Source: Branchiostoma floridae
Lineage: Eukaryota > Chordata > Leptocardii > Amphioxiformes > Branchiostomatidae
Length of the DNA: 64,000 nucleotides
Assembly (NCBI RefSeq): GCF_000003815.2
Contig: NC_049988.1
Coordinates: forward strand, 1,513,150-1,577,149
Direction of reading: 5' to 3'
In this document: positions 3,287 to 61,328 of the stretch, in pieces
How positions within the stretch are numbered: the stretch's first letter is position 1
Layout: the number at the start of each line of letters is the position of its first letter
The notes under the pieces: model-generated
What the model was told of the DNA's origin: nothing
Seen by the model: only the letters and a program-made list of their open reading frames with translations
Databases searched by the model: none
Program-made: the position numbers and the translations under genes

Positions 3287-3579
3287 TATTTCTTCTTTTC
3301 TTATATTTTCTATTGCACTAGGTTCAACATATTTCCTCTTTTCTTTTATTTTCTATTGCATTAGGTTCAACATATTTCTTCTTTTCTGATATTTTCTATT
3401 GCATTAGGCTCAACATATTTCTTCTTTTCTTATATTTTCTATTGTCAACATATTTCTTCTTTTCTGATATTTTCTATTCCATTAGGTTCAACATATTTCT
3501 TCTTTTCTGATATTTTCTATTCCATTAGGTTCAACATATTTCTTCTTTTCTGATATTTTCTATTCCATTAGGTTCAACA
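3287..3579 (+). repeat. 43-bp tandem array of splice-acceptor-like units
   Basis: Seven tandem units of 43 bp, each a pyrimidine-rich stretch followed by an ATTAG/GTTCAACA junction. AG dinucleotides fall at 3321, 3364, 3407, 3485, 3528 and 3571 (last base), exactly 43 bp apart except where one unit lost 8 bp around 3444, including its AG. The last unit runs into the ATG at 3579. The same acceptor-plus-leader context (CCATTAG then GTTCGAC then ATG) precedes the related gene at 30345 and the pseudogene at 21962. The array therefore looks like a duplicated 3' splice site of the zinc-finger coding exon. Confidence 0.8.
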
Positions 3580-4427
3580 TGGCAGAGGCAGGTAAATGGT
3601 CTCTTACTGCTGCTTCCAAGAACCTCGGTGATGGGTCTCCTACAGGATTTCTAGGTGACCGGAATGAAAGTAAAACCAAAGACCAGCCAACAGTGAGCAC
3701 AACCATAGCGGTCAGTCAACCGAAACCAAACACTGATGAGAAACCCTACATGTGTGGGGAGTGTGGATACACGGCAGCATGTCAGTCTCACGTATCCCAA
3801 CATATGAGAACACACACAGGAGAAAAACCATTCAAGTGTGACCAGTGTGACTATTCTGCTGCACGAAAATACAGTTTGAAACAGCATCTAGCCAAACACA
3901 CAGGTAATAAACCCTACATGTGTGGGGAGTGTGGGTATAGAGCAACTCAAAAGTGTCACTTATCCAAACATATGAGAACTCATACCGGCGACAAACCATT
4001 CAAGTGTGACCAGTGTGACCATTCTTCTGCACATAAGTCCAACTTGAACCAACATTTAGCCATGCACACTGGCTATAAGCCCTACATGTGTGGGGAGTGT
4101 GGGTACAGGACAGCTCTGAAATCTGATTTATCCAAACATATGAGAACTCATACTGGTGAAAAACCATTCAAGTGTGACCAGTGTGACTATTCTGCTGCAC
4201 ATAAGTCCAACTTGAACCAACATCTAGCCATGCACACTGGTGATAAGCCCTACATGTGTGGGGAGTGTGGGTACCGGACAACTCAGAAGTCTCATTTAGT
4301 GGAACATATGAGGACTCATACAGCTGAAAAACCCTACAAGTGTGATCATTGTGACTTTTCTACTGCACATAAGTCCAACTTGAACCGACATTTAGCCATA
4401 CACACCGGTGAGAAGCCATACATGTAG
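3579..4427 (+). CDS. C2H2 zinc-finger protein, eight fingers, probably 3'-truncated
   Basis: The 282-residue ORF is a candidate nuclear DNA-binding protein. Residues 1-55 are a low-complexity leader (starts MAEAGKW), followed by eight C-x2-C-x12-H-x3-H fingers joined by TGEKP-type linkers. Fingers alternate between a YMCGECGY type and an FKCDQCDY type, so the repeat unit is a two-finger, roughly 56-residue module. The start at 3579 is supported by its position just after an AG acceptor and by the same leader in the 30345 gene. The frame stops just as a ninth finger begins (YM then stop), where TGTGTGGGG-type sequence has become TGTAGGG. Recognisable finger DNA continues beyond the stop, so this is either a shortened protein or a recent pseudogene. 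No KRAB, SCAN or BTB domain is seen. The DNA target is unknown. Confidence 0.8.
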
Positions 4428-5984: not shown

Positions 5985-8852
5985 ATGGCTGCCGCAGACC
6001 AAGAACCCCACGTCAGCGCAGTTCGTCCTCGTTCCTACCAAAACGAGAGCTATCTACACGGGTTTCTTGGAACTGTGGGTGACCTACAGACGGCTGGGGT
6101 ACTGCAGGATGTCGTCCTTGAAGTCGAGGACCGGCGGTTTCCCTGCCATCGGCTTGTTCTGTCCGCGGCCAGCCCCTACTTCAGGGCCATGTTTACAAGT
6201 GACATGGCGGAAAGTCGTCAGAAGACGGTTGTTTTACAGGTAGGGTTGGCGTGACGTGCCTGTAGAATAGAGCGAATGACGAATATTTCAAAGATGCTAC
6301 GTATCATAGAGAGCATGTAAAACAGGTGTGATTAGTTGTTCCCGCACTATGCCCCCTCCCCACTTACGTCTTTGGCGTTAGGGGTTAAATGTCAACTTCG
6401 TGAGCCACATATTATCATTGTGCCTCTATTTTTAGCTATAAGAAATATTTTACAGTGATTAGAAACATATAACTATATGAACAATAGCAAATTGATATGA
6501 TTCAATAGCAAATTGGCATGGAAATTTTAACTTTTTTTAAAGAAATAAAGACAGTTGTGATATATATTTACCCTGTATATAACATTACATGAATGAATCA
6601 TGATATTAATAACATTACATGAATGAATCATGATATTAATAGTAATAATATGTAATGTGGTAAATGTTTTTGTTAACGTTATATTGTTTAACAGGGTTTG
6701 GATGCAGGCATGTTTGGGGAGATCCTGACTTACATCTACTCTGGAACCCTCCATGTGTCCCTGGACAAAGTGCAGCCCCTGTACCAGGCAGCCGACCTCC
6801 TCCAACTGGACTATGTGAGAGACACCTGCAGCGGCTACATGGCCATGAATGTGAATCACTCCAACTGTGTGGACCTATACAAGTTTGCTGATGTTTTCTC
6901 TGTGGACAGTGTTCTCAAATGTTGTCTGCAGTGGATCGATAGAAATTTTGCTGAGGTGGGTCTGATCATGATGTTTTGATATTAGTTTACTTCCTGACTT
7001 TCTAGTCCCACTGTTCTCCGTCCCATGCAAGAGTGACCACAAAGTGTCATGAATTCTAGAAAAATAACTTTTTCTTTTAGGAAGATAATGCCAAACATTT
7101 ATTATGTATTATTTAACAGATATTGTGTAAATTACAGTTCTTTGCATTTCTTGTAAGTAGAGAGACTATCACATTAAATGATGTTATCTACAAATTTAGA
7201 TTTAGATTATTAACCTCCATAGTTGTCCTATTAATGATATAAAGGAATGGCATCCACTATTCATTGGAAATTGTTAATTTTCAATATGCCTTTGCCAAAA
7301 GAAGGCTGTTTTCCACACTACCTTTCATGTGCATGTACTCTACATCTGAACAGGTTGCCTCCAGTGAGACGTTTTGCAGCCTGAGTGTGAATCAGCTGAC
7401 TGAAATCATCAGCCACGATGAGCTGGATGTTAAAGAGGAGACAACAGTGTGGGAGGCTGTGGTGAGATGGGTACAACACTGTAGGGAGGACAGGTGGGTA
7501 TGACTATGAATGTTCTGCAACTAAATAGTGTGGTTTTAGCAATAAGCATAGAAATAAAAGATGCTGCATTACAAAGAAATCAGTTGAATCAACCCCTGCC
7601 CTCTACCCTACAGACTGCATCAGCTACCCAGCATCCTCCCTCACATCCGCTACAACCTGCTGACCTCAGATGACACGGCAGCCATCATGGAACACCCCCT
7701 AGTCAGGGAGGAACCTGGGAGTTCTGAGGTCATCAGGAATGTGGTGCAGAGAGGTGCCTCCAACATGAAGCCAAGATTTGGGACGGGTGCAGAGGAAATG
7801 GCCCTTTTCTTTGAAACCAGGTCTGAACCTAGCTAACTGAAGCATTATATGGAGGATATACTCGGGTATTTCTTATTGCATTTGTGGACCAATCTGGTAA
7901 CTGGTAACGTACGATGTTGGTTGTGAGTGACCTCAATCTTATTTATTCCCCATATAAGAATGAAGCTAGATTTGTGCATTAAGTAAAGCAAGTTTCTGTC
8001 TTTTCCAGTCCCAACAACATGCAGGGGATAAATCCAAGATTAGGGAAGTTCTTCCGCTGCAGTTTCTCTGAAATCCCTCCTATCGTCAGTGCTACGGTCA
8101 CCAGTGACAACGACATCTACGTCCTGGCTGAGGAATCAGAGGTTCAGATGTCCCTCCTGTTCTATAATCAAATGAAGGCTGTCTGGGAACGTAAGTCGTT
8201 AGTTAAAAAGCTTCCAAGGCCACCAACAGACGAGCATCTTTTGGCTGTTGATGGAAATCTTTATTACCTTGCTTGTCATTGGAACCATCCGTTACAATCA
8301 CAGACCATTACACTGATGAAGCATGACTGGAACACAAAGGAATGGCATGACTGTTCCCCGCTGAAAGATGACATTTCTCGCATGGAACCATCAGTGTCAA
8401 ATGGTTGCCTCTATTTGTTAAGCACAGAAGAACTGCACTGTTACAGCCCAAAGAAGGACTGCTGGTTCATGGCAGCCTCACCAACTTTTCTTATCGATGA
8501 GTTCTGGACCAGTATTGCCCTGGGTACTGAGATCTTCTGCTCGGACATAGACTTTACTTCTGTGTCAGTGTACGATACCGAGGCAGACAGGTGGCAGCAG
8601 CTTCCAGTTTGGGAAAATCCAGAAGCGGAGAATAGAGATTATAGTACGTATTTCTTTGTACTTGAGAACCAGCTGCATGTGTATCTAGATACGGAAGAGC
8701 TGGAATATCGGCAAGTACATCTGTATGACAGGTGTGAGGGTGTTTGGAGAGAAATAGATGTCACCCTGGCTGATGACTTGGTATGGACATGTACCCCTAT
8801 TGTTGCACGTGTCTACCTGCCAGGTGTGCAGGACAGGTGTGCTAACACATAG
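5985..8852 (+). CDS. Kelch-like BTB-BACK-Kelch protein, gene A (five exons)
   Basis: Five exons join in phase: 5985-6239, 6695-6955, 7354-7493, 7614-7820 and 8009-8852, giving 568 residues, usual for the KLHL family. All introns are GT/AG. Exon 1 and the start of exon 2 encode a BTB fold ([27 protein letters not shown]). Exons 2-4 carry the BACK domain ([16 protein letters not shown], then HPLVRE). Exon 5 encodes degenerate kelch blades with repeated Trp positions (VWERK, EWHDC, CWFMA, RWQQL, VWREI). By family, such proteins bind Cullin-3 through BTB/BACK and recruit substrates through the kelch propeller; this role is inferred. The ATG at 5985 has a good context (CAACATGG) and is conserved in the downstream paralogue. 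The kelch repeats lack clear paired glycines, so the propeller is divergent. The family member cannot be named. Confidence 0.88.
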
Positions 8853-14500: not shown

Positions 14501-15422
14501 CATTCCATTTTCATAACATTTTGCTATGTATTTTATCATCTCCAGTTCGAAAGAGCTCCTCTTTATGAACCCTCGGGAAGGGAAATACATCAGCTGCAGT
14601 TACAAGTCAGAAGACCTCCCTAGTTTCACAGATGTGACAGTCACCAGTGATAACAACATCTACGTCCTGACTCGTGATCGAGAGAGGAACAATGAATTGT
14701 CCGTGTTTAAGTACAACCATGCTGCAAATGTGTGGGAACATGCTGGCATGTCCTCAGTATCTAAGTGGCTACAACAGGAAAATGGTTTTAGATACTACAA
14801 TGAGCGTCTTGTTGAAGTTGATGGGGTTTTATTCTATCTTGCTGGCGGTAAAGTTGAAGACAGTGGCTTGGTATGGATGAGGAAGTACAACTGTCACACA
14901 GATCAGTGGCAGGAATGTTCACAGCTGAAACTTGACTATAATTCACACTACCAAAGTGCAGCATTGTCCTGCAGTTCACACCTCTATTTTATCGCAAGTA
15001 TGGAAGTGCATCGCTACGACCCAAAGCAGGACTGTTGGTGCAAGCGAGCCACACCGATCGACATTGCTGAAGTCTGTTCAGCAGTTGTCATGGGAACAGA
15101 GATTTTCTGCACAGATGGTGACTTCAGTCAGACTCTGGTGTACGACACAGAGTCAGACTGCTGGCAGGAACTGGAAGGCTGGCCCAACACAGAAAACCTT
15201 GGTATTGATATAGTTCCCAGTCTTTTTGTACTGGATAACCGAATGCATGTATTGTTAAACTGTACTAGTGAATCCGAGGAAGCATACATATATCTCCTAA
15301 ACGTGTATGACAGGTCTGCTGACACCTGGAGTGACGTGAAGGCCAGTCTGCCTTATAAGAGATATTATGGGCAGTGTTCTCCTGTGGCACGTATATACCT
15401 ACCATATCTTAAGGGGGCATGA
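11510..15422 (+). CDS. Kelch-like BTB-BACK-Kelch protein, gene B (five exons)
   Basis: Tandem paralogue of the gene at 5985 with the same architecture: exons 11510-11764, 13171-13431, 13824-13963, 14091-14294 and 14546-15422, giving 578 residues. Exons 1-3 have the same lengths as in gene A (255, 261 and 140 bp) and all phases match. BTB is in exons 1-2 ([19 protein letters not shown]), BACK in exons 2-4 ([23 protein letters not shown]) and kelch blades in exon 5 ([31 protein letters not shown]). The exon 4 donor was set at GTCAGT (14295) to keep phase. The upstream frame is open to 11456, but the conserved ATG at 11510 is preferred. Exon 1 differs from gene A at seven of 255 bases, whereas exon 5 proteins are roughly half identical by eye. 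Predicted Cullin-3 adaptor; substrate unknown. Confidence 0.88.
12425..12865. repeat. 63-bp tandem repeat in intron 1 of KLHL gene B
   Basis: Six units start at 12492, 12555, 12618, 12681, 12744 and 12807, exactly 63 bp apart, with a degenerate unit upstream. Each contains the self-complementary CACTGGTAAGCCAGTG. Because 63 is divisible by three, an antisense frame stays open with a 21-residue period. It sits wholly in an intron and is not considered coding. Confidence 0.85.
12931..13094. mobile_element. Foldback (inverted-repeat) element in intron 1 of KLHL gene B
   Basis: Two arms are inverted copies: left with GGATAGTAGAG, CACAACCGATTG, CTCACATGCTGACATT; right with AATGTCAGCAGGTGAG, ATTGGTTGTG, CTCCACTATCC. 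The loop is around 13010-13045. Probably a short foldback MITE; no target duplication resolved. Confidence 0.6.
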
Positions 15423-23698: not shown

Positions 23699-23906
23699 CT
23701 GTAAATGCAGAAATGTTCGCGGTGGATTAATGTTCGCGATTTTCGCGGTGGCCACTTTACCGCGAACTTAAAACCACCGCGAACATTTTTCTATAACGGT
23801 AATAGACTGCAGACTATGGTGTTACCGCGAGATCAAAACCACCGCGAAAGGTCCTCTTTCAAGCTACCGCGAAATTAAATCCCCGCGAACTTAAATGTAT
23901 TTACAG
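23699..23906. mobile_element. Tc1/mariner-like MITE with TA duplication
   Basis: The 208-bp element begins CTGTAAATGCAGAAATGTTCG and ends CGAACTTAAATGTATTTACAG. The imperfect inverted repeats are ~24 bp, flanked by TA (23697-23698 and 23907-23908). The interior has many CpG-rich CCGCGAAC / GTTCGCGG repeats in both orientations. Confidence 0.75.
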
Positions 23907-24101
23907 TAGTTCCATATATTTTAAGATATTAGCAACTCATGTAGTTAAACTGTTCTGTATACGTATTGTATGTACAAGTTGCCACACATTGTATCCTTTA
24001 CAGTTGTCGTACAATAAAGTTCTATTCTTCTATTCTGTATTACATGTACCGTATTGTTAACTGCATATTATGCAGTATTACATTAAATATATTATATTAT
24101 T

Positions 24102-25758
24102 ATATTTCAGCCATACCATAGGTATGGTGAAATATATTGTATTCGTAATGTTTCTTTCTCCTGTCAAATCTTCAGAACACGGTATCTCCCTTGTTCCTCA
24201 ACCGAATGACTTGAAATTTGGCACAAGGGTAGAGTGGGCCAATACCCTCGGACGTTTTTTTTCATTTTTTCCATATCTGTCTCTTAAATGATTTTATTAA
24301 GGTTTTTTGGTCATCTTAAGACCAAAACTGTATATTTGGGCCCCCTGTACCCTGGTATTATAACCGAATGATCTGAAATTTGGCACAGATGTGCCTTGAT
24401 AAGTCCCCCATATAGATTCAATATCAGTTTTGGTGTTCAGTATAACAAAATGCTTATTTTTGCGATTTTTTGGTCATTTTTTTACCAAAAAAGGACACTT
24501 TTGGCTCCTGTACCTTGGTTTTAGAACCAGATGACCTGAAATTTAGTATAGGAGTGCCCTAGACATATGCGCACATGGATTCAATAACACTTGAGGTATA
24601 CAGTACAACAAAATGCTTAATTTTGCGATTATTTGGCCATTTTATGACCAAAAAGTACACTTTTGGCTCTTGTGCTCTGGTTTTAAAACCAAATGACCTA
24701 AATTTTGGTAAAAGGGTGCACTAGATATTTATTCAAATGACACATGTATAGTTTTTGTCATAGACTACGTCAAAATGATATATTTGGGGATTGTTTTGTC
24801 ATTTTCCAATAGCCAGAGGGGTCAATGACCTTAAGGTCATTGACCCCCAGCTGCAGATTGCACCTACTTGGCATATATGTCTATTTAATCTAATCAGATA
24901 GGTAACCAATCACTTAGCCTGAATCTATATCCTAAAGAGGGGGGGTGGCAGCCAATCAGCGAGCCCGGTGTTATCTGGAAGAGTCCATTCTTACACGGAG
25001 GGGTTCATTTTTTTTTTATTCATCATTGCACTGGTGAAGTCTTTCAGTGGATGTATTTTTGGACAGGTCTATTTTGCAATTTTACAGAATGTGTGCTGGA
25101 AGAGTCTATTCTCGCACGGAGGGGGGATTTGTCAAAATTCATATTTTGGACTTTGGTGACTTCTAGTTTGTCAAAGTCTTTCAGTAGGGTTATTTTTGGA
25201 CTGGTCTAATTTGCAATTTTACTTGGGTGTTCTGGAAGAGTCCATTCTTGCATGGAGGGGGCTTTTTTAAAAATCCATTTTTTGGACTTCAGTGATTATG
25301 TCAAAGTCCTATTTTAGCGGATGTATTTTTGGACTGCCCTACTTTACATGGGAGAGTCCATTTTTGCACACGGAAGGGGGACTTTTTCAAATTCAGTTTT
25401 GAACGGGTCATGATTCAAAATTCAATTTTTAGTGGAAGTGTTTTTAGACTGGTTTATTATACCTTTTCATGCACTGGGACCTTCTTTGCTAAATTCAATT
25501 TTGGATTTGGTTTCTTATTCAAAAGGCCAAGGTTTCAGCGGGAGAATTTCTGGACTGGTCTATTGTGCAAATTCACATAGGGTGCACTGGAGTCCATTCT
25601 TGAATGGGGGAATTTTGTAAGATTCATTTTTGGGTTAAACCGTCATTAGTAAAAGTGATTTTTCAAATGGGTGATTTTGAAATAGCCTATTGTTGCATGG
25701 GGAGGGAGATGGCTGAAATATGCTGTATTTGCTCTCAAGCAAATGTCGGCCTTTCTAG
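24102..25758 (+). mobile_element. Helitron-like non-autonomous element, copy I (subfamily A)
   Basis: The 3' end has the Helitron pattern: stem-loop ATTTGCT-CTCA-AGCAAAT (25727-25744), fourteen bases to CTAG (25755-25758), then T. The 5' side has a palindrome (24102-24135) whose left arm ATATTTCAGCCAT is the exact complement of ATGGCTGAAATAT (25709-25721) just before the 3' hairpin. The interior has AAATTTGGTAC-type monomers, then ~125-bp repeats containing CTGGAAGAGTCCATT. No Rep/helicase ORF. The exact 5' base is uncertain. Confidence 0.65.
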
Positions 25759-27395
25759 TTATATTGCAATCCATACATAGTATGGGATTGCAATATATTG
25801 TTATATTGCAATCCATACATAGTATGGGATTGCAATATATTGTTTTTCCTGAGTTTCTCCTGTCAAAATCTTCAAATGGATTCAACTTTTTCATTTTTGG
25901 GCCAAATGAGCTGAAATTTGGCAGGGTGGTAGAAATAGCAAATACCCCCAGACGTTTTTTTCACTTTCTTGATAGAGGCCTTAGAATTTGTTATATTTAG
26001 GGTTTTTGGTCATTTTTAGACAAAATATGTATATTTTGGGCCCCTGTGCCCTGGTATTACAAGCTAATGACCTGAAATTTGGTACAGAGGTGCATTGGAC
26101 ATATGAGCACAGAAAACCATCGACACCTTCTTCATAGATCACTTCAAAAATTAGTTATTTTAGGGTTTTTGGCCATTTTTGACTAAAAATGTATATTTAT
26201 GGCTCCTATGCCCTTGTATTAAAACCAAATGACCTGAAATTTGGTACATAGGTGCGTTTGACATATGACCACAGAACCCCATCAACGCTTTATTAATTGT
26301 TTACTCCAAAAAATCCCATACTATGTATGGATTGCAATATATTGTTTTTCCTGAGTTTCTCCTGTCAAAATCTTCAAATGGATTCAACTTTTTCATTTTT
26401 GGGCCAAATGAGCTGAAATTTGGCAGGGTGGTAGAAATAGCAAATACCCCCAGACGTTTTTTTCACTTTCTTGATAGAGGCCTTAGAATTTGTTATATTT
26501 AGGGTTTTTGGTCATTTTTAGACAAAATATGTATATTTTGGGCCCCTGTGCCCTGGTATTACAAGCTAATGACCTGAAATTTGGTACAGAGGTGCATTGG
26601 ACATATGAGCACAGAAAACCATCGACACCTTCTTCATAGATCACTTCAAAAATTAGTTATTTTAGGGTTTTTGGCCATTTTTGACTAAAAATGTATATTT
26701 ATGGCTCCTATGCCCTTGTATTAAAACCAAATGACCTGAAATTTGGTACATAGGTGCGTTTGACATATGACCACAGAACCCCATCAACGCTTTATTAATT
26801 GTTTACTCCAAAAATGAGTTATTTTAGGGTTTTGGGCCATTTTTTACTAAAAATGTATATTTTTTGCTCCTATGCCCTTGTATAGAAACCAAATGACCTG
26901 AAATTTGGTACAGAGGTGCATTGAACATATGCTCACAGGACCCCATTGACACTTTCTTCATAGATCACTTGAAAAATGAGTTATTTTGGGGTTTTCAGTC
27001 ATTTTTGACCAAAAATGTATATTTTTGGCTTCTATGCCCTTGTATGTAAACCAAATGACCTGAAATTTGGTACAAAGGTAAATTGGACATATGACAACAG
27101 GACCCCATCAACACTTTCTTCATAGAGCACTTATTAAATGAGTTATTTTGGGATTTTTAGCCATTTTTAACTAAAAAATGTATATTTTTGGCTCCTATGC
27201 CCTTATATTGAAACCAAATGACCTAAAATTCGGCATGAAGGTGTGTAGGACAAGTGCCCACAGTACTTCATTTTCCCTTTGAGCAAACATTACTTCAAAC
27301 ATTACTTCAAATTGTTAAATTTAGGGATTTTTTCAAGGATGAAGATGGATTGCAATATGCTGTATTTGCTCCCAAGCAAATGTCGGCCTTTCTAG
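25759..27395 (+). mobile_element. Helitron-like elements, copies IIa and IIb (subfamily B)
   Basis: Starts with two 42-bp palindromic units (25759-25800 and 25801-25842; arm ATATTGCAATCCAT). The arm is the exact complement of ATGGATTGCAATAT (27345-27358) before the 3' hairpin (27364-27381) and CTAG end at 27395. A second half-palindrome at ~26312-26340 followed by the same downstream sequence (502-bp shift) shows that a 5' part copy (IIa) is followed by a fuller copy (IIb). Monomers containing GACCTGAAATTTGG recur every 162 bp (26571, 26733, 26895, 27057). Confidence 0.65.
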
Positions 27396-28594
27396 TTTTT
27401 TCTTTGTCTCTCCTGTCAAATCTTCAAATGGGAATAACTTTTTTATTTTTTGACCAAATGACCTGAAATTTGGCAGGGTGGTAGAAATAGCAAATACCCC
27501 CAGACGTTTTTTTCACTTTATTGATAGAGGCCTTAGAATTTATGATATTTAGGGTTTTTGGTCATTTTTAGACAAAATATGTATATTTTGGGCCCCTGTG
27601 CCCTGGTATTACAAGCTAATGACCTGAAATTTGGTACAGAGCTGCATTGGACATATGAGTACAGAAAACCATTTACACTTTCTTCATAGATCACTTCAAA
27701 AATTAGTTATTTTAGGGTTTTTGGCCATTTTTGACTAAAAATGTATATTTTTGGCTCCTATGCCCTTGTATTAAAACCAAATGACCTGAAATTTGGTACA
27801 GAGGTGCATTAAACATATGAGCACAGAAAAAAATCAACACTTTCTTCATAGATTGCTTAAAAAATGAGTTATTTTAGGGTTTTTGGCCATTTTTGACTAA
27901 AAATGTATATTTTTGGCTCCTATGCCCTTGTATTAAAACCAAATGACATGAAATTTGGTACATAGGTGCGTTTGACATATAACCACAGAACCCCATCAAT
28001 GCTTTATTCATTGTCTACTCCAAAACTGAGTTATTTTAGAGTTTTTGGCCATTTTTGACAAAAAATGTATATTTTTGGCTCCTATACCCTTGTATGAAAA
28101 CCTAATGACCTGAAATTTGGTACAGTAGTGCATTGAACATATGCTCACAGGACCCCATTGACACTTTCTTCATAGATGACTTCAAAAATTAGTTATTTTG
28201 GGGTTTTCAGCCATTTTTGACTAAAAATGTATATTTTTGGCTTCTATGGCCTTGTATGTAAACCAAATGACCTGAAATTTGGTACAAAGGTAAATTGGAC
28301 AAATGACAACAGGACCCCATCAACACTTTCTTCATAGAGCCCTTATAAAATGAGTTATTTTGGGATTTTTAGCCATTTTTAACTAAAAAATGTATATTTT
28401 TGGCTCCTTTGCCCTTATATTGAAACCACATGACCTAAAATTAGGCATGAAGGTGTGTAGGACAAGTGCCCACAGTACTTCATTTTCCCTTTGAGCAAAC
28501 ATTACTTCAAATTGTTGAATTTTGGGATTTTTCAAGGATGAAGATGGATTGCAATATGCTGTATTTGCTCCTAAGCAAATGTCGGCCTTTCTAG
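27396..28594 (+). mobile_element. Helitron-like element, copy III (subfamily B, lacks 5' palindrome)
   Basis: Begins with CTCTCCTGTCAAATCTTC close after the preceding CTAG end and repeats the monomer array. It ends with the ATGGATTGCAATAT box, hairpin 28563-28580 and CTAG at 28591-28594, followed by T. Confidence 0.6.
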
Positions 28595-30226
28595 TGTTTC
28601 TTTCTTTCTTTCTTTCTTTCTTTCTCCTGTCAAATCTTCAGAACACGGTATCTCCCTTGTTCCTCAACCGAATGACTTGAAATTTGGCACAAGGGTAGAG
28701 TGGGCCAATACCCTCGGACGTTTTTTTCATTTTTTCCATATCTGTCTCTTAAATGATTTTATTAAGGTTTTTTGGTCATCTTAAGACCAAAACTGTATAT
28801 TTGGGCCCCCTGTACCCTGGTATTATAACCGAATGAGCTGAAATTTGGTACAGATGTGCCTTGATAAGTCCCCCATATAGATTCAATATCAGTTTTGGTG
28901 TACAGTATAACGAAATACTTATTTTTGCGATTTTTTGGTCATTTTTTTTACCATAAAAGGACACTTTTGGCTCCTGTACCTTGGTTTTAGAACCGGATGA
29001 CCTGAAATTTAGTATAGGAGTGCCCTAGACATATGCGCACATGGATTCAATAACACTTGAGGCATACGGTACAATAAAATGCTCAATTTTGCGATTATTT
29101 GGCCATTTTATGACCAAAAAGTACACTTTTGGCTATTGTGCTCTGGTTTTAAAACCAAATGACCTAAATTTTGGTAAAAGGGTGCACTAGATATTTATTC
29201 AAATGACACTTGTATAATTTTTGTCATAGACTACGTCAAAATGATATATTTGGGGATTTTTTTTGTCATTTTCCAATAGCCAGAGGGGTCAATGACCTTA
29301 AGGTCGTTGACCCCCAGCTGCAGATTGGACCTACTGGCATATATGTCTATTTAATCTAATTAGATAGGTAACCAATCACTTAGCCTGAATCTATATCCTA
29401 AAGAGGGGGGGTGGCAGCCAATCAGCGAGCCCGGTGTTATCTGGAAGAGTCTATTCTTACACGGAGGGGTTCGTTTTTTTTTTAAATTCATCATTGGACT
29501 GGTGAAGTCTTTCAGTGGATGCATTTTTGGACAGGTCTATTTTGCAATTTTACAGAATGTGTGCTGGAAGAGTCTATTCTCGCACGGAGGGGGGATTTTT
29601 CAAAATTCATATTTTGGACTTTGGTGACTTCTAGTTTGTCAAAGTCTTTCAGTAGGGTTATTTTTGGACTGGTCTAATTTGCAATTTTACATGGGTGTTC
29701 TGGAAGAGTCCATTCTTGCATAGAGGGGGCTTTTTTTTAAATCCATTTTTTGGACTTCAGTTATTATGTCAAAGTCCTATTTTAGCGGATGTATTTTTGG
29801 ACTGCTCTACTTTACATGGAAGAGTCCATTTTTTGCACACGGAAGGGGGATTTTTTCAAATTCAGTTTTGAACGGGTGATGATTCAAAATTCAATTTTAG
29901 TGGAAGTGTTTTTAGACTGGTCTATTATACCTTTTTATGCACTGGGACCTTTTTTGCTAAATTCAATTTTGGATTTGGTTTCTTATTCAAAAGGCCAAGG
30001 TTTCAGTGGGAGTATTTCTGGACTGGTCTATTGTGCAAATTCACATAGGGTGCACTGGAGTCCATTCTTGAACGGGGGAATTTTGTAAGACTCATTTTTG
30101 GGTTAAACCGTCATTAGTAAAAGTGATTTTTCAAATGAGTAATTTTGAAATAGCCTATTGTTGCATGGGGAGGGAGATGGCTGAAATATGCTGTATTTGC
30201 TCTCAAGCAAATGTCGGCCTTTCTAG
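28595..30226 (+). mobile_element. Helitron-like element, copy IV (subfamily A)
   Basis: Nearly base-for-base repeat of copy I from CTCCTGTCAAATCTTCAGAA onward, with scattered substitutions. It has the hairpin at 30195-30212 and CTAG at 30223-30226 followed by T. A (TTTC)n microsatellite at ~28599-28622 replaces the 5' palindrome. It ends ~120 bp upstream of the zinc-finger coding exon at 30345. Confidence 0.65.
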
Positions 30227-30344
30227 TATTATATCATATTATATTGCATATACATTATGCATTTGCTTTCAATTGTTACGTACCTACTGCAATCTAGCTT
30301 TGATTTGTTTCATCTTTTCAAATGTCTTGTCCATTAGGTTCGAC

Positions 30345-31187
30345 ATGGCAGAGGGAAGTAATGGGTCTCCTACTGCTGTTCCTCAGAACTTCGGTGATGG
30401 ATCTCCTATTGATGTTTTATGCGACCGGGATATACGTACAACAAAAGAACAGTCCACAGCAAGCAAAACCAGTTTGGTCAGTCAACCGGAAGAAAACACT
30501 AATGAGAAGCCCTACATGTGTAGGGAGTGTGGGTACAGGACAGCTAAGAAATCTCATTTATCCGACCATATGAGAATTCATACCGGTGAAAAACCCTACA
30601 AGTGTGACCAATGTAACTATTCTGCAGGAAGGAAATCCCATTTGTATTATCATCTAGCCAAACACACTGGTGACAAACCCTACATGTGTGGGGAGTGTGG
30701 GTACAGGACGGCTCAGAGGTCTCACTTATCCCGACACATGCGAACACACACAGGGCAAAAACCCTTCAAGTGTGACCTTCGTGACTATTCTGCAGCAAGG
30801 AAATGCCATTTGGACCGACATCTAGCCAAACATACTGGTGACAAGTCCTACATGTGTGGGGAGTGTGGGTACAGGACAGCTCAAAAGTCACATTTATTCC
30901 GACATATGAGAACTCATACCGGTGAAAAACCCTACAAGTGTGACCACTGTGACTATTCTGCTGCACAGACGTCCACCTTAAAACAACACCTAGCCATGCA
31001 CACTGGTGAAAGGCCCTACATATGTGGGGAGTGTGTGTACAGGACAACTCGGAAGTCGCATTTATACGAACACATGAGTACTCATACAGGTTATAAACCC
31101 CACAAGTGTGACCACTGTGACTATTCTTCGGCAACAAAGTTCAATTTGGACAGACATGTATCTAAACACACCGGTGATAAGCCTTAG
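30345..31187 (+). CDS. C2H2 zinc-finger protein, eight finger units (one defective)
   Basis: The 280-residue ORF is homologous to the gene at 3579. The frame is open further upstream (to 30123) through Helitron-derived DNA, but the ATG at 30345 is chosen because it follows an AG acceptor (CCATTAG, 30331-30337) and begins the conserved leader (MAEGSNG). Residues 1-56 are leader; eight alternating YMCGECGYR / YKCDQCNYS-type units follow with TGEKP/TGDKP linkers. In unit 4 the second zinc cysteine is replaced by arginine (CDLRDY), so that finger should not fold. The ORF ends at TGDKP then stop, where a further finger starts in degraded form. Candidate DNA-binding regulator of unknown target; possibly a decaying gene. 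Confidence 0.78.
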   Translation: MAEGSNGSPTAVPQNFGDGSPIDVLCDRDIRTTKEQSTASKTSLVSQPEENTNEKPYMCRECGYRTAKKSHLSDHMRIHTGEKPYKCDQCNYSAGRKSHLYYHLAKHTGDKPYMCGECGYRTAQRSHLSRHMRTHTGQKPFKCDLRDYSAARKCHLDRHLAKHTGDKSYMCGECGYRTAQKSHLFRHMRTHTGEKPYKCDHCDYSAAQTSTLKQHLAMHTGERPYICGECVYRTTRKSHLYEHMSTHTGYKPHKCDHCDYSSATKFNLDRHVSKHTGDKP

Positions 31188-36873: not shown

Positions 36874-39800
36874 GGCTCTAACGTACCCGACACTGGTGGT
36901 TTCTGTCATGTGGGCAACAATGACGTCATCCTATGTTATCCGGTTGACGGTGGTGCTTTTGCTAGCTGGACAAGGTATTTCTTTTTACAATTATGTCATA
37001 ATACTAAATCCAGGTTGTATTTTATTGTTGTAATTCAAATGAATTTACTCATAATATTCATTGGTCGATACGAATGGGAACCATCATTAAGTGATAGTTC
37101 CCGTTCACAACTTTTTTTCTTTGTTGCTTTTGGACAGACGAGGACAATATGGCACTGCACTCATGTTTCATGGTAACTTATATAAACAGTGCCATGTACA
37201 AGGTAGAGACAGATGGTAAATGTAGTCTTTTACCTCCCCGACTAAATTCAGCTGGTATCCATTTATATACCTGGTTTAAATGAGGAAGGTCGTGTAAAAT
37301 GGCTTTCCCAATGGCATAACTTTGGGGGCACGGCGGGCCCGACGCTCATTTACAACTTCAGTTTTAAAATATTATTTTGGTAAATAGGAGGAATATGAAA
37401 TGACCTTGTTGTGTAAGGCTATGACTTTTCTTTAGGTATGACTTGTGTATAAATCCCAGGGGATTTTCCTTTAATCCACATCTCAGCTTATGGCGATGTA
37501 ACGCGAGAACTTAATGGCTACCGCTACATGGCGATTACAAGCTCCCGCCGCAACTGGGACCAGGCAGAAGCAAGGTGTGTGTCATACGGGCCTTACGGCG
37601 GGCACCTCGCACGCATTACATCATCAACTCAGCAGCACCTTCTCACAGATATGGCATTGGGACATTCTGGAACACACTATTGGATTGGATGTACTGACCG
37701 ACAGGTATGGGTCATATATGAATTCAAAAGGGTCATTCCACTCCAGAAGGGGGTAGTGTTTTCCTATAGATAATGTGTCAATGAATACATAATCAGCCGA
37801 ATTTTCTGGAATTCACCTTTGGATGAATTGCACGATTTGTGTTTTGTAAAACAATATGACACTCACTAGACCCATGCAGACCATACCAATGCATTTCTTA
37901 TACGCAGAGACACTTGTTTATCGTGCATATTTCCGGAATAATTGAGGATCGCTAAGCACACCGAGAAGGCAAATTGCTCATTAGATAGCAAAGGACACAT
38001 AACAACACGAGATTTCTTAGCGATCCTGAAATTAGTTTTGTAACCTTACCTAAAAGTTATGCATTGTATTCAGCCATGGGATTAATTCAATAAGAGGGTA
38101 CTTGGGGAGTTTAGTAGAAGACTGAATGCCTTTGAGGCACGTGGAGCAATTGGGTACTTTATCGTATAATGTGAATGCATTTATTACTTCATGAAATTGA
38201 TACCTTGAAAATAACACTCCCTTGTGGAGTGGAATGCCCCTTTAATGAATTTTTACTTATTACACCGGTGTTAAGATATAGTTAGTTTATTTTTTAACAA
38301 TTTTTTATGGACACAAAACTCTTTTTATACCATTATTACCCGATGATTATTACCTTCTTTGTTCCTTCAGATTGAAGGCATATGGCGATGGTCCGATGGG
38401 TCAAGTCTCAGCTACACAAACTGGGCTCCAACACAACCAGACAACGCTGATGGCATCCAGGACTGCGGAATTCTGTACAGCATATATGGATATGCACAAT
38501 GGGATGATACGGAATGCAGTACTCCATACTTCTTTATTTGCCAAACAGGTAAATAATTTTATTGAATACTTACTTTCAAAGGATTTTTAGACGAAATTGT
38601 TAGGGTAAAGTGTGTAGAATCCTTGTTTTTGATATCAAATAATGACAATGATCTCAATTAGGGAAAGCGATAGTTATTTTATGTTCGAACATCCAAATTA
38701 AAATTAGCGTCACCAAGTCTTTATTAGATGCATTCGTTTTATTTACGAAGTGTTCTTGTAGCAAAATCATGGTGATATTTATACCTGGTAGTCCAAAAGA
38801 GACCAGTGTAGACTGGGGCTCTGTAGTATTGCACAAGTTGTATCTGGGTCAAATCATCTCTGAGACACACTTCCAGACAGACCACAAAGACCGTAATAAC
38901 AAAGGAGGGGGTGTTGTCATGTACATAAAAAACAATATTCCGTATAAAAGACGGTTTGACTTGGAAACCCCCGAAATTGAACTTATCTGGGCGCAAATAC
39001 ACATTCGACACACACAGCCAATCTTGGTAGGATGCCTATACAGGCCTCCAAGTGCCAAGTTGGACTACCTCAACAGAATCATACAGGCATTTGATTTGGC
39101 GACAAATACAGAACAGGAAGTATTAATACTAGGTGATTTTAATATAAACTGGACAAACATGACCTGTACCTTAAGAGACAAACTTTACCTAGAGTCGACT
39201 GCATTGAATATTAAACAAATGGTTAATCAAGCAACTAGAATAGTCAAGACTTCCAAAGGTCCAGTAAACTCTTCTTGTATAGATCTAATTTTTTCAAACA
39301 GGCCTGAAAACTAACAAGCACACAGTCCGCCCCTCTAGGATGTTCAGACCACAATCTTATACACANNNNNNNNNNNNNNNNNNNNNNNNNNNNNNNNNNN
39401 NNNNNNNNNNNNNNNNNNNNNNNNNNNNNNNNNNNNNNNNNNNNNNNNNNNNNNNNNNNNNNNNNTACAAAAACGTTCGTATAACGATTCACCTAGATGA
39501 ATTCCTGTTAGATATCTTGTCTGTTCCATGGCACCTAGTGCAAAATGAAGAATGTGTAGATGACGCTTTGGAGTGTTTCATGGCTCTTTTCACAGAGATA
39601 TGCGACAAACACGCTCCTGTCAGAAAGTGTTCAGTAAGGGCGTCGCCCGCCCAGAGGGTAGACGGCGACCTTAGAGAACTCATGGCACAGCGTGACAACG
39701 CAAAGCGTGAAGCACAGGTGTCGGGAATGGAATCAGACCACAAGATCTACAAAAGACTCAGGAATTTAGTAGTAAATGAAAACAGAAAGAGGAAGAAAGC

Positions 39801-42800
39801 CTTCTACAAGGAACAAATTGAATTATGCAGTAGCACTAAAGACAGCAAGCAACTCTGGAAAGTTGTTAACGGAATGTTAGGTAAAAACAATTCAAGTGCA
39901 CCGAATTCCATTGAAGTGGACGGACAATTCTGACAAAACCAGCTGAAATCGCTGAATATTTCAACGAATATTTCATTGAAAAAATACAAAAACTCTCCAA
40001 AGATGATAACCCGGACATACCGAACTCAGTAGCACCCATAGAAGAATATATCATGGCTAATAAGAACTGTTCCTTCTCCTTTCAATATGTAACTGTCGAG
40101 CAGGTGCACGCTTTGTTGAAAGCACTGCCCCCAGGTAATGCTATTGGCCACGACAATGTTGACAACACTTTGTTGAAACTTTGCGCCGATCACATTGCTC
40201 CTCCATTATGTCACATATTTAACTGTTCCATCAGGCAAGGCATCTTCCCTTCACAATGGAAGATAGCAAAGGTTCTACCACTTATAAAGAATAAATCCGC
40301 CCCGCTTAGCGGACCTAACAGTCGCCCCATCAGCCTGTTACCAGCAATTAGTAAGGTCATGGAAAGGATATGCCAGAAACAAATTCAAACTTACCTTGTT
40401 TCCAATGACGTAATTTCCGAAAACCAACATGCGTATAGAAAATCACACTCTACAGCTAGTGCCCTTATACAAATGTCTGACTACTGGTTGGGGGAGATAG
40501 ATCTTGGTGCATGCTGGTTGGCGCCGTTNNNNNNNNNNNNNNNNNNNNNNNNNNNNNNNNNNNNNNNNNNNNNNNNNNNNNNNNNNNNNNNNNNNNNNNN
40601 NNNNNNNNNNNNNNNNNNNNNNNNNNNNGGCATGTGATGTCATTAACCACGATATTTGTTTAGCCAAGCTTAAGAGCTATGGTTTTGAGGAATCGGCGAT
40701 CAAGTGGGTACAGAGTTATCTTGGCAACAGGAAACAAGCTGTATTCGTTAACGGTAGTTTTTCCTCTTATAAAGAATCCAGGTGTGGCGTTCCCCAAGGC
40801 AGCTGCCTGGGTCCATTGCTTTTCTCTATATTTGTCAATGATCTCCCCGCAGTTACAAATAGTATAGTAGTCATGTACGCTGATGATTCAACGCCCTCAG
40901 CATCGGCTCCCACCGTCGCAAAATTGAAATACAAATTGCAGACTGACTTGGAGCGAATCTGGGATTGGGTACAAACTAATCATCTTGTTCTCAATATCGG
41001 AAAAACTAAATCAATCATGATGGGTACGCAACAAAAACTAAAACGTAATCCCAAATTAGAACTAAGAATAGATGGAACAGACATTACACATGTAGAACAG
41101 GCTGAACTGTTAGGTCTCACTATAGACCAACGTCTCACATGGGGATCGCATATTGACAAAACGAAGAATAAAATAGCAGGCATACTAGCCACAATAAGAC
41201 GACACAGGAAGTACTTCACAAAAAGTATATTGAGATCTGTTATTCAGGCTCTGGTTTTGTCACACATTGACTACGGCTCAGTGCTGCTATCCTCTGCACC
41301 ACAGACACACATAGATGGTCTTCAGGTGGTCCAGAATCGCGCTGCTCGCCTGGCCACAAACAAACCCTTTGACACCAACCTGGAAGACCTACACATGCAG
41401 TTAAAGAGGCAAACCGTCAAAGAAAGACTCTTCACAAATACTCTATGTACATTCCACAAAATTGTTAAGGAAAGGCAACCCCAATGCATCTTCAAGCAAT
41501 TACAAACAATTCAATCCACACATGAGCATCACACGAGGCTGTCTACTAGAGGAGCATTCACTCAATCAAAACCCAAAACAAACGCTAAAACAAGGACGTT
41601 TGGCTACAGATGCATCAAAACCTATAACACATTGCCAAACACAACGACATCATACAACAACATTGAGTTCAAATCTAGGATAAAAGAGCTTGCGAAAACA
41701 CGAGACAAAAGACAACCCCTGAGCACATGGTGGTAATGATTATTATATTTCAGTACATCTAAGTTATACATTTATGTTGTGTTATTAGTACACTTTTGAT
41801 TGGATTGTGTTTCAATCAATTAAGTTAACTTCTTCTGCTATTCATTATTCGTTATGTATGATCACTTCTTTATTTTGACCTCTGACCTCTGTTTATTATT
41901 TTGCTTATTATTTTACGCTAATTATCCGCTTTTGATGTTAAGTTGTTTCTTTTTCATTTCATGTATTTCATTTATTCTTACTATTATGACTCCAGGAAGA
42001 GTAGTGGCATGATTTTATGATGTACACTAATGGAGATCGCAATTAAACAAACAAACAAACAAACAAACAGACAGACCATAGCCAGCTATGCTTTAGAACT
42101 TTTGTAAGCTGTGAAGATGTGAGCTTGTGAGGCTACTTTAAATTGTGTGTAGCCATACGTCAATTACTTCTGTTCAAGACTATTGACTTATGTGCATTCC
42201 AAACAGTTTTAAAGAGTAAATCCAATTTACTTGCTAATCTGCTTACACTTAGGTGAACACCACGGTGGTTGGAACCAGACTGAGGGCTGGTAGTTTACAC
42301 TAGCCAAATTTATTGGCTGATTTTATAGTAAACCTAGGTCTTTCAGCAATGTTCTTTTCATCTGTTCACTTAGATATTAACGAATGCTCCAATGATAACG
42401 GAGGCTGCAGCCACAACTGTGAGAACACTGACGGTAGTTACCGTTGTATCTGTCAGGACGGGTACCAGCTGTCCGGGTTAACGGACTGTAGGGGTCAGTG
42501 AAGTAGTGCATGGTTAATTTTATGCTTCGGGTGCCTTTTATAAGTTTATTCCCTATAAGTACTACCCTATCAAGACGAAGGGGTGACAAAAATGGCCGCA
42601 CCAACTTTGACGTCTTATAACTCCCAAACAGCTTGTGCTAGGACAACCAAACTTGGTGACATTCCTAAAATATTGTTGGCAGCAATTTCCGATTTTTTGG
42701 GTTGTCATTGCAACGGGTTTCTGAAAGGCATGTTTTCCGAAATTCACTCATGTTGGTGTGAACAATGTGATTTTAAGATATTCATGCTAAGCTACATTAG

Positions 42801-59562: not shown

Positions 59563-61328
59563 TTTTGAACTGGTTTATTTATTGAACGCACACAAAATCA
59601 AGTACAAGCTGGTAGTCCGGAGACTAAATTGCCTCGTACTAAGTACACAAGAGAGTATAATGGAAATCCCTGCATATGTGCAGTAATCAAATTATTCTAA
59701 TCGCAATTCGCACTCAGCTGTACAATGTAAAAGTGTGGATCTACACACACATAGTAGATATATATATGTCAGTAATAAAATCTCATTTCAATCTAAAACA
59801 TCACTATTAAGGAATATTAAAAAGTGACATCTGAAGTCTAACATGAATTTAAAAGGTCGACACAGTATGGGAGCGTAGTGTTCCTAAAGCGAGCCGTTCT
59901 ACACTTAAACTGAGTGAAGTTGTCAGCGTTTCTGAGGTCTCTACCATGTGCCTCAGAGCGGCGTGGTGGTAGCCAGTTGAATACCTCAGAATTAACAAGT
60001 GATCTAGCAAACCTCAGGCAGTGAGCCTTACGTCTTACATGCAAATGTTCCAGATCACACACCTGCAGTGCCGAACTGTAGGAACAGTAGGAGCGACCAA
60101 GGATAATCTTACAGGCTCTAACCTGGATACGCTCTATCATACGTGATTGTTCTACTGTAAGACCAGGGTGCCAAACCTGGCAGGCGTATTCCAGGGTGGG
60201 GCGGACAAACCCTATGTACACAAGTACTAAGTCGCTAGTGCTCAGACCGTGTTTCTTCAAACACCTAATCATGTAAAGGCGGCGGTTAGCTTTGCCCACA
60301 ATCATTACTACATGTGCAGTCCACTTCAAGTTTGCTTGTAGTATTACACCCAGGACCTTGGCCATGTGCACAACTTCGAGTTCAGATGTGCCAACAAACA
60401 GTTTGGGAGTTTCAGGCGGTCTTCGCAGGAAGCAAATGTACATCACCTTGCATTTAGTTGGGTTAAGCTGCATGTAGTTCTTGTCAGTCCAGCTGACAAG
60501 ATTGTCCAGATCGGTTTGAACTTTGGAAGGTTGTGTTGCAAGACTGGCCTCAGCGAGCGACATGTCGTCGACATATTTCCAGGCCTCTGCTGAGGTAACT
60601 TCCTGGGGGACTGCATCATTAATGAGGACAAGAAAGATCAGGGGACCAAGCTTCGTACCTTGGGGTACTCCACAGGTAAGGGTTTCCCAGTCAGAAAAAG
60701 TCCCTTTGTAGGTGACTCGCTGCTGTCTGTGTGAAAGAAAATCGCAGATCCAAGGGAGGATAGAACGACGAACACCAAGTTCAAGGAGTTTCTTCATCGC
60801 AGTCAGGTGATGAACACGGTCAAACGCACGCGTAAAGTCCGTGAGTACCAAGGTGCTGGTATGACCGGGTTTGTCGGTAGTGCTGGCCAGACTATGAACA
60901 AGACTTGTCAGGCAGTGTGTCGTGGACCTACCCTTAAGTGAACCAAACTGACGGTTGTCTATGTAGGGAAGAATGTCCTGTAGGCACCACTTGGCGACGA
61001 AATCTTCACAAATCTTAGCGAAGATTGAGGTTAAAGAGATTGGTCGCAACTTTTCAAGGCGCGGTGGGTTCTCCTTGGGAATGGGGACAACGTTGGCTTT
61101 TTTCCACATAGATGGCACGGATCCTGCAGCCAGCGAGGTGTTAAAAATGTCGCACAAAGGCAAGCTCAGCTCGAAGGCGAACTCTCTCACCAGGCGGGGA
61201 GAGACATCATCTACACCTGCAGCTTTGCCTAGCTTCACTTTGCGAAGTTGGTGATACATGTCCCACACTGTAACCTTGGGAGGAGGGTTACAAGCAGGCA
61301 GGAAGGACGGAAGTTCATCTAAGGAGTT
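59563..61328 (-). mobile_element. 5'-truncated non-LTR retrotransposon inside the 68-bp satellite
   Basis: Both edges show the satellite pentamer CACCT (59558-59562 and 61329-61333), which occurs once in an uninterrupted unit. This gives a 5-bp target duplication. On the minus strand the element enters mid-ORF at 61328 and ends with a short A run (TTTT on the plus strand at 59562-59565). The satellite predates the insertion. Confidence 0.8.
59838..61328 (-). CDS. Retrotransposon reverse transcriptase, long intact ORF (5'-truncated)
   Basis: About 496 codons without a stop encode RT and the C-terminal region of a CR1/Jockey-like non-LTR element. Motifs in order: KLGKAAGVDDVSPRLV, LRPISLTSIFAKICEDFVAK, DNRQFGSLKGRSTTHCL, TDFTRAFDRVHH (motif A), GVPQGTKLGPLIFLVLIND (motif B), KYVDDMSLAE (catalytic motif C), then LGVILQANLKWTAHV and RPTLEYACQVWHPGL. 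The endonuclease half is missing. The apparent GTG start at 61329-61331 lies in the duplicated satellite, so it is not a real start. The catalytic box is intact, indicating a fairly young insertion, but a truncated copy cannot mobilise itself. Confidence 0.85.
   Translation of the reverse strand, partial: NSLDELPSFLPACNPPPKVTVWDMYHQLRKVKLGKAAGVDDVSPRLVREFAFELSLPLCDIFNTSLAAGSVPSMWKKANVVPIPKENPPRLEKLRPISLTSIFAKICEDFVAKWCLQDILPYIDNRQFGSLKGRSTTHCLTSLVHSLASTTDKPGHTSTLVLTDFTRAFDRVHHLTAMKKLLELGVRRSILPWICDFLSHRQQRVTYKGTFSDWETLTCGVPQGTKLGPLIFLVLINDAVPQEVTSAEAWKYVDDMSLAEASLATQPSKVQTDLDNLVSWTDKNYMQLNPTKCKVMYICFLRRPPETPKLFVGTSELEVVHMAKVLGVILQANLKWTAHVVMIVGKANRRLYMIRCLKKHGLSTSDLVLVYIGFVRPTLEYACQVWHPGLTVEQSRMIERIQVRACKIILGRSYCSYSSALQVCDLEHLHVRRKAHCLRFARSLVNSEVFNWLPPRRSEAHGRDLRNADNFTQFKCRTARFRNTTLPYCVDLLNSC

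Follow-up and report, generated by a model that had tools for sequence, protein, structure and literature searches.

Non-autonomous Helentrons of the HINE and DINE-1 type have subterminal inverted repeats (subTIRs) of 11-15 bp, an inverted repeat (IR) beside the 5' subTIR, a microsatellite, central tandem repeats and a 3' palindrome, and contain no open reading frame (ORF). Their end types differ between subtypes and match within them, as in types 1-3 of D. willistoni (PMC4067079, PMC2374699; here and below, published systems are characterised from the available portions of the papers). The same features were observed in two families, A and B, of non-autonomous Helentrons (HINEs) that form a head-to-tail row at 24100-30226 of a 64,000-nt stretch of the Branchiostoma floridae genome (hereafter the window: NC_049988.1, positions 1,513,150 to 1,577,149, part of contig C10 of the 513-Mb genome). 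Very probably this array is a nest of A and B elements mobilised by Rep-PIF1-endonuclease Helentrons, with new copies entering mostly behind the 5' hairpins of resident ones.

Each element consists of 5'-TT, a hairpin formed by the 5' subTIR and the IR arm, a T-rich leader, the body, the 3' subTIR, a 3' hairpin and CTAG-3'. The subTIRs lie near both ends and exceed the 11 bp expected of Helentrons and HINEs (13 in A, 14 in B), the IR stands beside the 5' subTIR as in DINE-1, and the palindrome lies between the 3' subTIR and the 3' end. For family A, an autonomous partner was found that carries Rep, helicase and endonuclease domains and shares the ends. The sequence-only reading, made without database searches, had called the array Helitron-like, and its members do belong to the Helitron superfamily. 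Unlike HINE and DINE-1, the A and B elements have 5'TT and 3'CTAG ends, insert into TWD|T (W, A or T; D, A, G or T) and nest at one spot behind the hairpin.

In Helitron2 the 5' hairpin holds the 5' asymmetric terminal inverted repeat (ATIR), and the 3' ATIR lies upstream of the 3' hairpin. Two related Culex elements show compensatory changes, and pairing of the ATIRs was proposed to set the end point (PMC3627910). The ATIRs and the hairpins at both ends are present here as well. However, Rep of Helitron2 has no endonuclease, whereas the A partner carries Exo_endo_phos, and hairpin-adjacent self-targeting was not found in the available part of that paper. The proto-Helentron of Phytophthora shares 5'TT, 3'CTAG and the absence of target duplication, but lacks the endonuclease present here and inserts into A|T (PMC4067079). 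Cg_HINE of the Pacific oyster has the same order of 5' subTIR, IR, microsatellite, tandem repeats, 3' subTIR and palindrome, with element-specific changes in the subTIR, IR and stems; it differs in carrying satellites, and no nesting rule was found in the text available (PMC7492417).

Two further systems resemble the array in their insertion behaviour. FoHeli elements of Fusarium oxysporum, which their authors group with Helitron2, have ATIRs and multiple 5' termini explained by self-insertion. Their target TNAT|A becomes TNA|T if the element begins one T earlier, a point left open by the authors. In contrast to the present elements, few cases are given, and the accessible text was not found to describe a genome-wide hotspot or count (PMC5148889). 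Maize Helitrons prefer insertion near or inside other Helitrons, and nesting generates multiple termini. However, they have canonical 5'TC and 3'CTRR ends, and it is the 3' termini that are multiple (PMC3288121). Thus the ATIR or subTIR anatomy, the matched change between subtypes, the HINE-Helentron partnership, nested Helitrons and multiple 5' termini have all been published, as far as the sources available show. A single-step hotspot behind the 5' hairpin, a strong family bias and a target motif equal to the 3' end were not found in the papers searched, a set that mostly excludes subscription journals. The elements are of a known kind; their targeting behaviour looks new.

Insertion behind the 5' hairpin

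The exact 22-nt 3' tail has 1962 matches in the genome, and its reversed control none. Exact matches number 1812 for the A 5' end, 371 for the B 5' end and 346 for the B 3' box. No exact match to the 3' tail patterns tried was observed in IMG/VR viral contigs or prokaryote genome contigs. The first 100 tails listed, all on contig C1, form 81 clusters, of which 40 were taken in order. Three more were added because they contain several tails each, and L001, L002 and L027 were dropped as duplicates of other stretches. The sequence-only reading had placed the element boundary at CTAG; this holds, as T follows 1953 of the 1962 exact tails (nine lack it) and nested copies restore the empty site.

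Most new elements have gone in no more than about 20 nt downstream of the 5' hairpin of a resident A or B copy. After removal of one duplicate stretch, the 40 consecutive clusters contain 52 3' ends. The right flanks of 14 match an element; one match (L014) was discarded as spurious. Of the 13 flanks kept, one starts in a body and 12 start within 60 nt of the beginning of another element, four of these at position 1, that is, at the next hairpin. When left-flank and opposite-orientation inserts are included, 12 of 16 nested inserts lie in a leader. All 12 have the orientation of the resident, while the body inserts are divided between two in the same and two in the opposite orientation (Fisher P 0.05). 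In L026, an A element lies in opposite orientation inside the body of another A element. The leader contains 3.1% of the TWD|T steps in 34 elements, which gives P 4e-10 (8 of 12 inserts, chains set aside) or P 1e-15 (12 of 16), with events treated as independent.

The same step recurs throughout the genome. A hairpin followed by a new 5' end at exactly ATATTG^TT was found at 170 left junctions, stacked hairpins included, 92 of them behind an A hairpin and 78 behind others, mainly B; 86 of the first 100 are distinct. The chance expectation is 0.014 for an A hairpin followed by B and 0.07 for A followed by A. The corresponding right junction at the step behind the A hairpin, CTAG^TATTCGTAATG, occurs 69 times, and 53 of these are paired with a left junction upstream on the same strand. 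The paired inserts are about 810-9228 nt long and fall into 29 length classes. Sixteen measure 1084-1091 nt (the size of a B element), three 2168-2172 nt (double that size) and three 3336-3343 nt (the size of a long A element).

One possibility is that the hotspot reflects a mere preference for T-rich or microsatellite DNA and has nothing to do with the hairpin. The leader is indeed T-rich and carries (TTTC)n, and single insertions all lie at T-N-N|T, nearly all of them at TWD|T. However, 97% of the TWD|T steps of the elements lie outside the leader, and few insertions are found there. A repeated TWD|T step in B bodies, ATGAGTTA|T, has one exact insertion genome-wide, compared to the 78 left junctions behind hairpins other than A, and inspection by eye of the 14-nt flanks at 31 single sites showed nothing resembling a microsatellite. 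We consider this explanation improbable. Another control step, CTG|T, for which no matches were found, was dropped in favour of this TTA|T step, since it is not a valid target under the TWD|T motif.

The target motif follows from the 31 single insertions. Position -3 is T in 31 of 31, position -2 is A or T in 29, position -1 is A, G or T in all, and position +1 is T in all, yielding TWD|T. Insertion between A and T, suggested earlier for this array, was not borne out, the base before the element being A in 15 cases, G in 10 and T in 6. This frequency of A, together with the 5' TT and the presence of subTIRs, separates the elements from canonical Helitrons (Helitron1). As to a TT target, T is found at +1 in 31 of 31 and at -1 in 6 of 31 when the element is taken to start with TT, whereas T|T holds by definition if one T is assigned to the flank. 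If the element begins with TT, no target base is duplicated, and the same is true of the nested inserts.

The 3' end of the element itself, TAG|T, is an instance of TWD|T, and thus a second element can sit directly behind CTAG. In IS91 and IS608, the HUH nuclease reads the same letters at the 3' cleavage site and at the target. The coincidence of 3' end and target motif here would fit a nuclease of this kind. Most likely, the hotspot would be caused by tethering of the transposase: the Helentron Rep would bind the 5' hairpin when transposition begins and, when held by a resident hairpin, cut a nearby TWD|T step and join the new strand there.

Probable nested order and its alternatives

A new copy entering a resident leader in the same orientation would push the resident body downstream and leave its hairpin upstream. 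On repeated entry, hairpins would stack in front, and bodies without hairpins would close the array in reverse order. If a hairpin is written as an opening bracket (a, b) and a body with its 3' end as a closing one (A, B), L019 and L049 read a b B A and L043 reads b b B B, balanced and with matching types. L033, with six elements, reads a b b B b a A B b B B A and is likewise balanced with types matched; 1855 of 200000 random orders balance. When the flanks of inserts are joined, uninterrupted resident sequence is restored in L019, L049, L045, L033 (leader and body), L043 and the window (B2 in B3). The restored leader is ATATATTG^TATTCGTAATG in L019 and L049 and TTCGTAA^TG in L045, and a B-element body in L033 is restored as GAGTTA^TTTTGGG. 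In L003, one A leader received two inserts, which are separated by nine bases of the resident; the hairpin belonging to this leader falls outside the stretch fetched.

In the window, A2 would have been the first element. B3 would then have entered the A2 leader, B2 the B3 leader, and A1 the same place in A2, one A hairpin being lost later, probably by deletion between adjacent hairpins. By the stack order, the first B hairpin (25759-25799) would be the 5' end of B3, severed from its body by the later insertion of B2. The two B palindromes stand in tandem at 25759-25841. This doubling was dropped as a stand-alone proof of nesting, as hairpin stacks also exceed bodies in L031 and L004.

The sequence-only reading had offered rolling-circle concatemers or nested insertion as explanations of the order A-B-B-A, and the second of these fits. 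Missed termination at CTAG would produce head-to-tail multimers that are inserted together. The head-to-tail order agrees with this, and tandem Helitron arrays of bat and silkworm were ascribed to bypass of the termination signal (PMC4067079). However, every joint of a concatemer would retain its 5' hairpin, and each array would consist of a single family, whereas the B3 and A2 bodies have no hairpin, families alternate, hairpins are stacked in front, and joined flanks restore empty sites in leaders. Together with the 53 matched pairs of left and right junctions, this contradicts a concatemer for the fetched nests, and makes it highly improbable as the origin of the array.

Composite transposition is a further possibility. 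Some stacks or nests could have moved as ready-made units, from the outermost 5' end to a later 3' end, so that repeated junctions would be copies of few events. This was proposed by Chellapan et al. for the multiple 5' termini in Fusarium (PMC5148889). It agrees with L031 and the fetched portion of L004, where B hairpins outnumber B bodies, with the 371 B 5' ends against 346 B 3' ends in the genome, and with the concentration of 16 of the 53 inserts at 1084-1091 nt. On the other hand, the inserts fall into many length classes, A as well as B is found as the first element, there are several leader breakpoints (38-42, 47, 50, 55), and one leader (L003) received two inserts. Composite movement seems possible but rather doubtful.

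A number of observations weigh against successive insertion behind hairpins. For its two A bodies the window has a single A hairpin, and L028 is likewise one A hairpin short. L031 has one B hairpin too many, and L050 has a B hairpin without a 3' end. On C1, when exact matches alone are counted, 8 of the 16 multi-event groups are balanced; the other 8 are short of a hairpin (a A A, twice), have one in surplus, or are cut. For sixteen of the 69 right junctions, the nearest 15 kb contain no left partner, and 92 left junctions stand against these 69. Some nests may be copies of one nest moved as a unit, as the sixteen inserts of B-element size indicate, and the 53 pairs do not stand for 53 independent events. 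The 170 left junctions include stacked hairpins, as do the 92 at a few places. The TTA|T body control covers B only, with 0-3 steps per B element and none in A elements. Two leader breakpoints in the microsatellite, TGT|T (L045) and TTC|T (L033), deviate from TWD|T. Finally, the 31 single insertions show no enrichment of hairpins upstream (mean rank 0.51). This rules out hairpins in general as targets and means that it is this particular hairpin that attracts. Loss or gain within the stacked 40-nt direct repeats, plus composite transposition, would explain the unbalanced groups.

The two families differ in their use of the hotspot. At the step behind the A hairpin, 59 of 371 B 5' ends were found, compared to 33 of 1812 A 5' ends (P 4e-25; stacked hairpins account for a few of these). 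Of the 3' ends in the fetched sample, 8 of 13 B ends and 4 of 39 A ends lie in leaders (P 0.0005; 0.036 without L033; 0.02 by locus). We tentatively suggest that the 5' hairpin is a homing mark: a Rep that starts at the hairpin might also steer integration to TWD|T beside any resident hairpin of the group. B might then be a specialist parasite sitting between the A start signal and the A body or genes (possibly those of the autonomous A element too), its 3' end stopping replication begun at the A hairpin. This remains the less probable side of the matter.

Matched ends and the autonomous partner

The letters and coordinates given for the array by the sequence-only reading were correct when checked again, including its central claim that the 5' and 3' ends change together. 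In A, the 5' arm is ATATTTCAGCCAT and its exact complement ATGGCTGAAATAT forms both 3' boxes. In B, the arm ATATTGCAATCCAT occurs at 25761-25774 and 25803-25816, and its complement forms both B boxes. All four 3' ends share the stem ATTTGCT/AGCAAAT and close with CTAG (at 25758, 27395, 28594 and 30226), followed each time by T. As noted before, the palindromes precede the first copies only, the third and fourth bodies (from 27396 and 28595) having none in the window. Three positions distinguish A from B, and at 2 of them the IR arm of the 5' hairpin, read from the sequence, changes in step with the other two sites.

The longest complementary match between the ends is 13 nt in A and 14 nt in B. 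Among 1000 dinucleotide shuffles such matches averaged 6.0 and 6.2 nt and reached at most 10 nt in either family; none came up to the observed length. Crossed ends (the A 5' end with the B 3' end, and the reverse) have longest complements of 6 and 5, not above chance. Folded as DNA, the 5' palindromes have energies of -11.3 and -12.3 kcal/mol (z -7.4 and -5.5), a stability reached by none of 200 shuffles. The 3' hairpin has -6.2 kcal/mol (z about -3.5), reached by 2 and 0 of 200 shuffles.

The coupling extends to other copies, and independent variation of arm and box was not observed. Single elements compared by sequence include 28 with two A ends, 3 with two B ends and none mixed. Two further single 3' ends have no 5' hairpin in the fetched stretch; one of them (L021) belongs to the autonomous element, whose hairpin lies farther upstream. 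By coordinates, the two-event groups on contig C1 comprise 56 A-A, 6 B-B and no mixed pairs, so that 62 of 62 simple pairs match. The two sets overlap, and the coordinate count leaves out places with a single end and no partner (14 A hairpins, three A 3' ends, one B 3' end) and three A 5' places beyond the last tail listed. The 75 3' boxes found with at most three mismatches (the window and L003-L008 counted in, duplicates removed) comprise 44 exact A and 31 exact B boxes, without intermediates, and T follows all 75. The 5' end is TT with two exceptions (L004, L026) among those examined. In the alignment of 28 A elements, where the tail but not the box was pre-selected as exact, the arms, box, stem and tail are essentially invariant, while the loop, microsatellite and body vary.

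That the two ends change in a matched way between subtypes has been described, in the accessible text, for Helitron2, Helentrons and DINE-1 (PMC3627910, PMC2374699), and for Helitron2 Bao and Jurka (2013) proposed that the 5' and 3' repeats pair when a round of replication ends. The matched ends observed here fit that proposal. The data show constraint on the ends rather than pairing itself. We favour the view that the two subTIRs would have to pair, or be read by one protein, as rolling-circle replication ends. Alternatively, one arm might have been copied onto the other by template switch or gene conversion between inverted repeats, and the match would then owe nothing to selection on pairing or recognition. 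The existence of just two end types without intermediates is what a single copying step would yield. On the other hand, near-invariance of the arms, boxes, stem and tail beside variable loops and bodies points to function. This invariance speaks to function and not to the origin of B, and copying, though the weaker candidate, keeps an appreciable minority chance.

The sequence-only reading had suggested looking for an autonomous Rep-helicase element with the same ends. Such an element exists for A; for B, there is a candidate for the 5' side only. The A element occupies about 13 kb at C1:5959314-5972316, with the A hairpin at 5959314, Rep at 5965403 and the A 3' end at 5972316, all on one strand. 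Its frame of 1775 residues contains Rep (PF14214, Helitron_like_N), a PIF1 helicase and Exo_endo_phos, the set characteristic of Helentrons. Its leader is 89% identical to those of 3.3-kb A elements over 254 columns, and its last 121 nt are 90-91% identical to A elements. Given the shared ends and the Rep, PIF1 and endonuclease domains, A is a HINE family with its own Helentron. One Rep may serve both families.

The PF14214 profile has 79 matches across the genome. A second class of Rep covers profile positions 47-185 and has 21 copies at an identical 84.1 bits; it probably represents another Helitron family. The Rep at C4:13091804 is preceded, at a distance of 7.5-8 kb, by B hairpins, the first of them in an A leader (L054). 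None of the exact B 3' ends listed lies downstream, and this locus was not accepted as a B-type autonomous element. A Rep near the right junction at C3:9164647 was dropped as a nested autonomous copy, a B 3' end lying there. At C3:30354768, on the minus strand, a Rep lies 6.5 kb upstream of a 3' end situated in an A leader (C3:30348252). Possibly, and this is tentative, this is an autonomous element itself inserted behind an A hairpin.

The array, its surroundings and its meaning

The coordinates of the array are collected in Table 1. Over ungapped columns, A1 and A2 are 97.3% identical, and B2 and B3 95.4%. A 469-nt piece of B is present twice with 100% identity (25843-26311 and 26345-26813). 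The complement of the B box occurs once more at 26327-26340, within the inverted hairpin copy, a place missing from the list of the sequence-only reading. The duplication at 25843-26341 with the inverted hairpin at its joint resembles the product of a recent template switch at the hairpin, or of faulty assembly.

Table 1. Features of the A/B array and their positions in the window
Feature	Position	Strand	Basis
A1, complete non-autonomous A element, TTATATTTC...CTAG, 1659 nt	24100..25758	+	anatomy as in 28 single A elements
A 5' hairpin: 5' subTIR 24102-24114, IR right arm 24122-24137	24102..24137	+	
A1 3' end: subTIR box 25709-25721, hairpin 25727-25744, CTAG 25755-25758	25709..25758	+	
First B 5' hairpin with TT	25759..25799	+	joined flanks
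Second B 5' hairpin, with the duplicated first 469 nt of the B2 body	25801..26311	+	
Inverted, truncated copy of B 5' hairpin at duplication joint	26312..26341	-	
B2 body, 162-nt central repeats, 3' end (box 27345-27358, CTAG 27392-27395)	26342..27395	+	
B3 body without hairpin, beginning at T-tract right after CTAG of B2; 3' box 28544-28557	27396..28594	+	
A2 body without hairpin, beginning TGTTTC right after CTAG of B3; 3' box 30177-30189	28595..30226	+	
Target T after outermost 3' end	30227..30227	+	

Just upstream of the array, at 23711-23910, there are inverted and direct repeats rich in CCACCGCGAA motifs, resembling a miniature inverted-repeat transposable element. ORFs with C2H2 zinc fingers were found at 3579-4424 and 30345-31184, the second beginning about 120 nt after the array, and two ORFs with Kelch-repeat matches at 8019-8849 and 14526-15419. 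Pieces of non-LTR (long terminal repeat) retrotransposons with endonuclease and RVT_1 lie at 38769-41733 and, on the minus strand, at 59841-61331; the first contains runs of N at 39366-39465 and 40529-40628. At 62600-63998, long frames overlap on both strands over a low-complexity CTGTCTG-rich repeat.

In their available portions, the DINE-1 and HINE papers were unable to settle how the Ts at the ends are to be assigned. The nested copies provide exact empty sites and fix the rule: 5'TT...CTAG3' elements go into TWD|T, a motif that their own 3' end also carries. A single-nucleotide hotspot beside a hairpin bears on target choice in Helentrons and Helitron2 and on the role of the 5' hairpin, and makes hairpin-directed targeting directly testable. 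It also offers an alternative explanation for clusters and tandem arrays that have been ascribed to missed termination.

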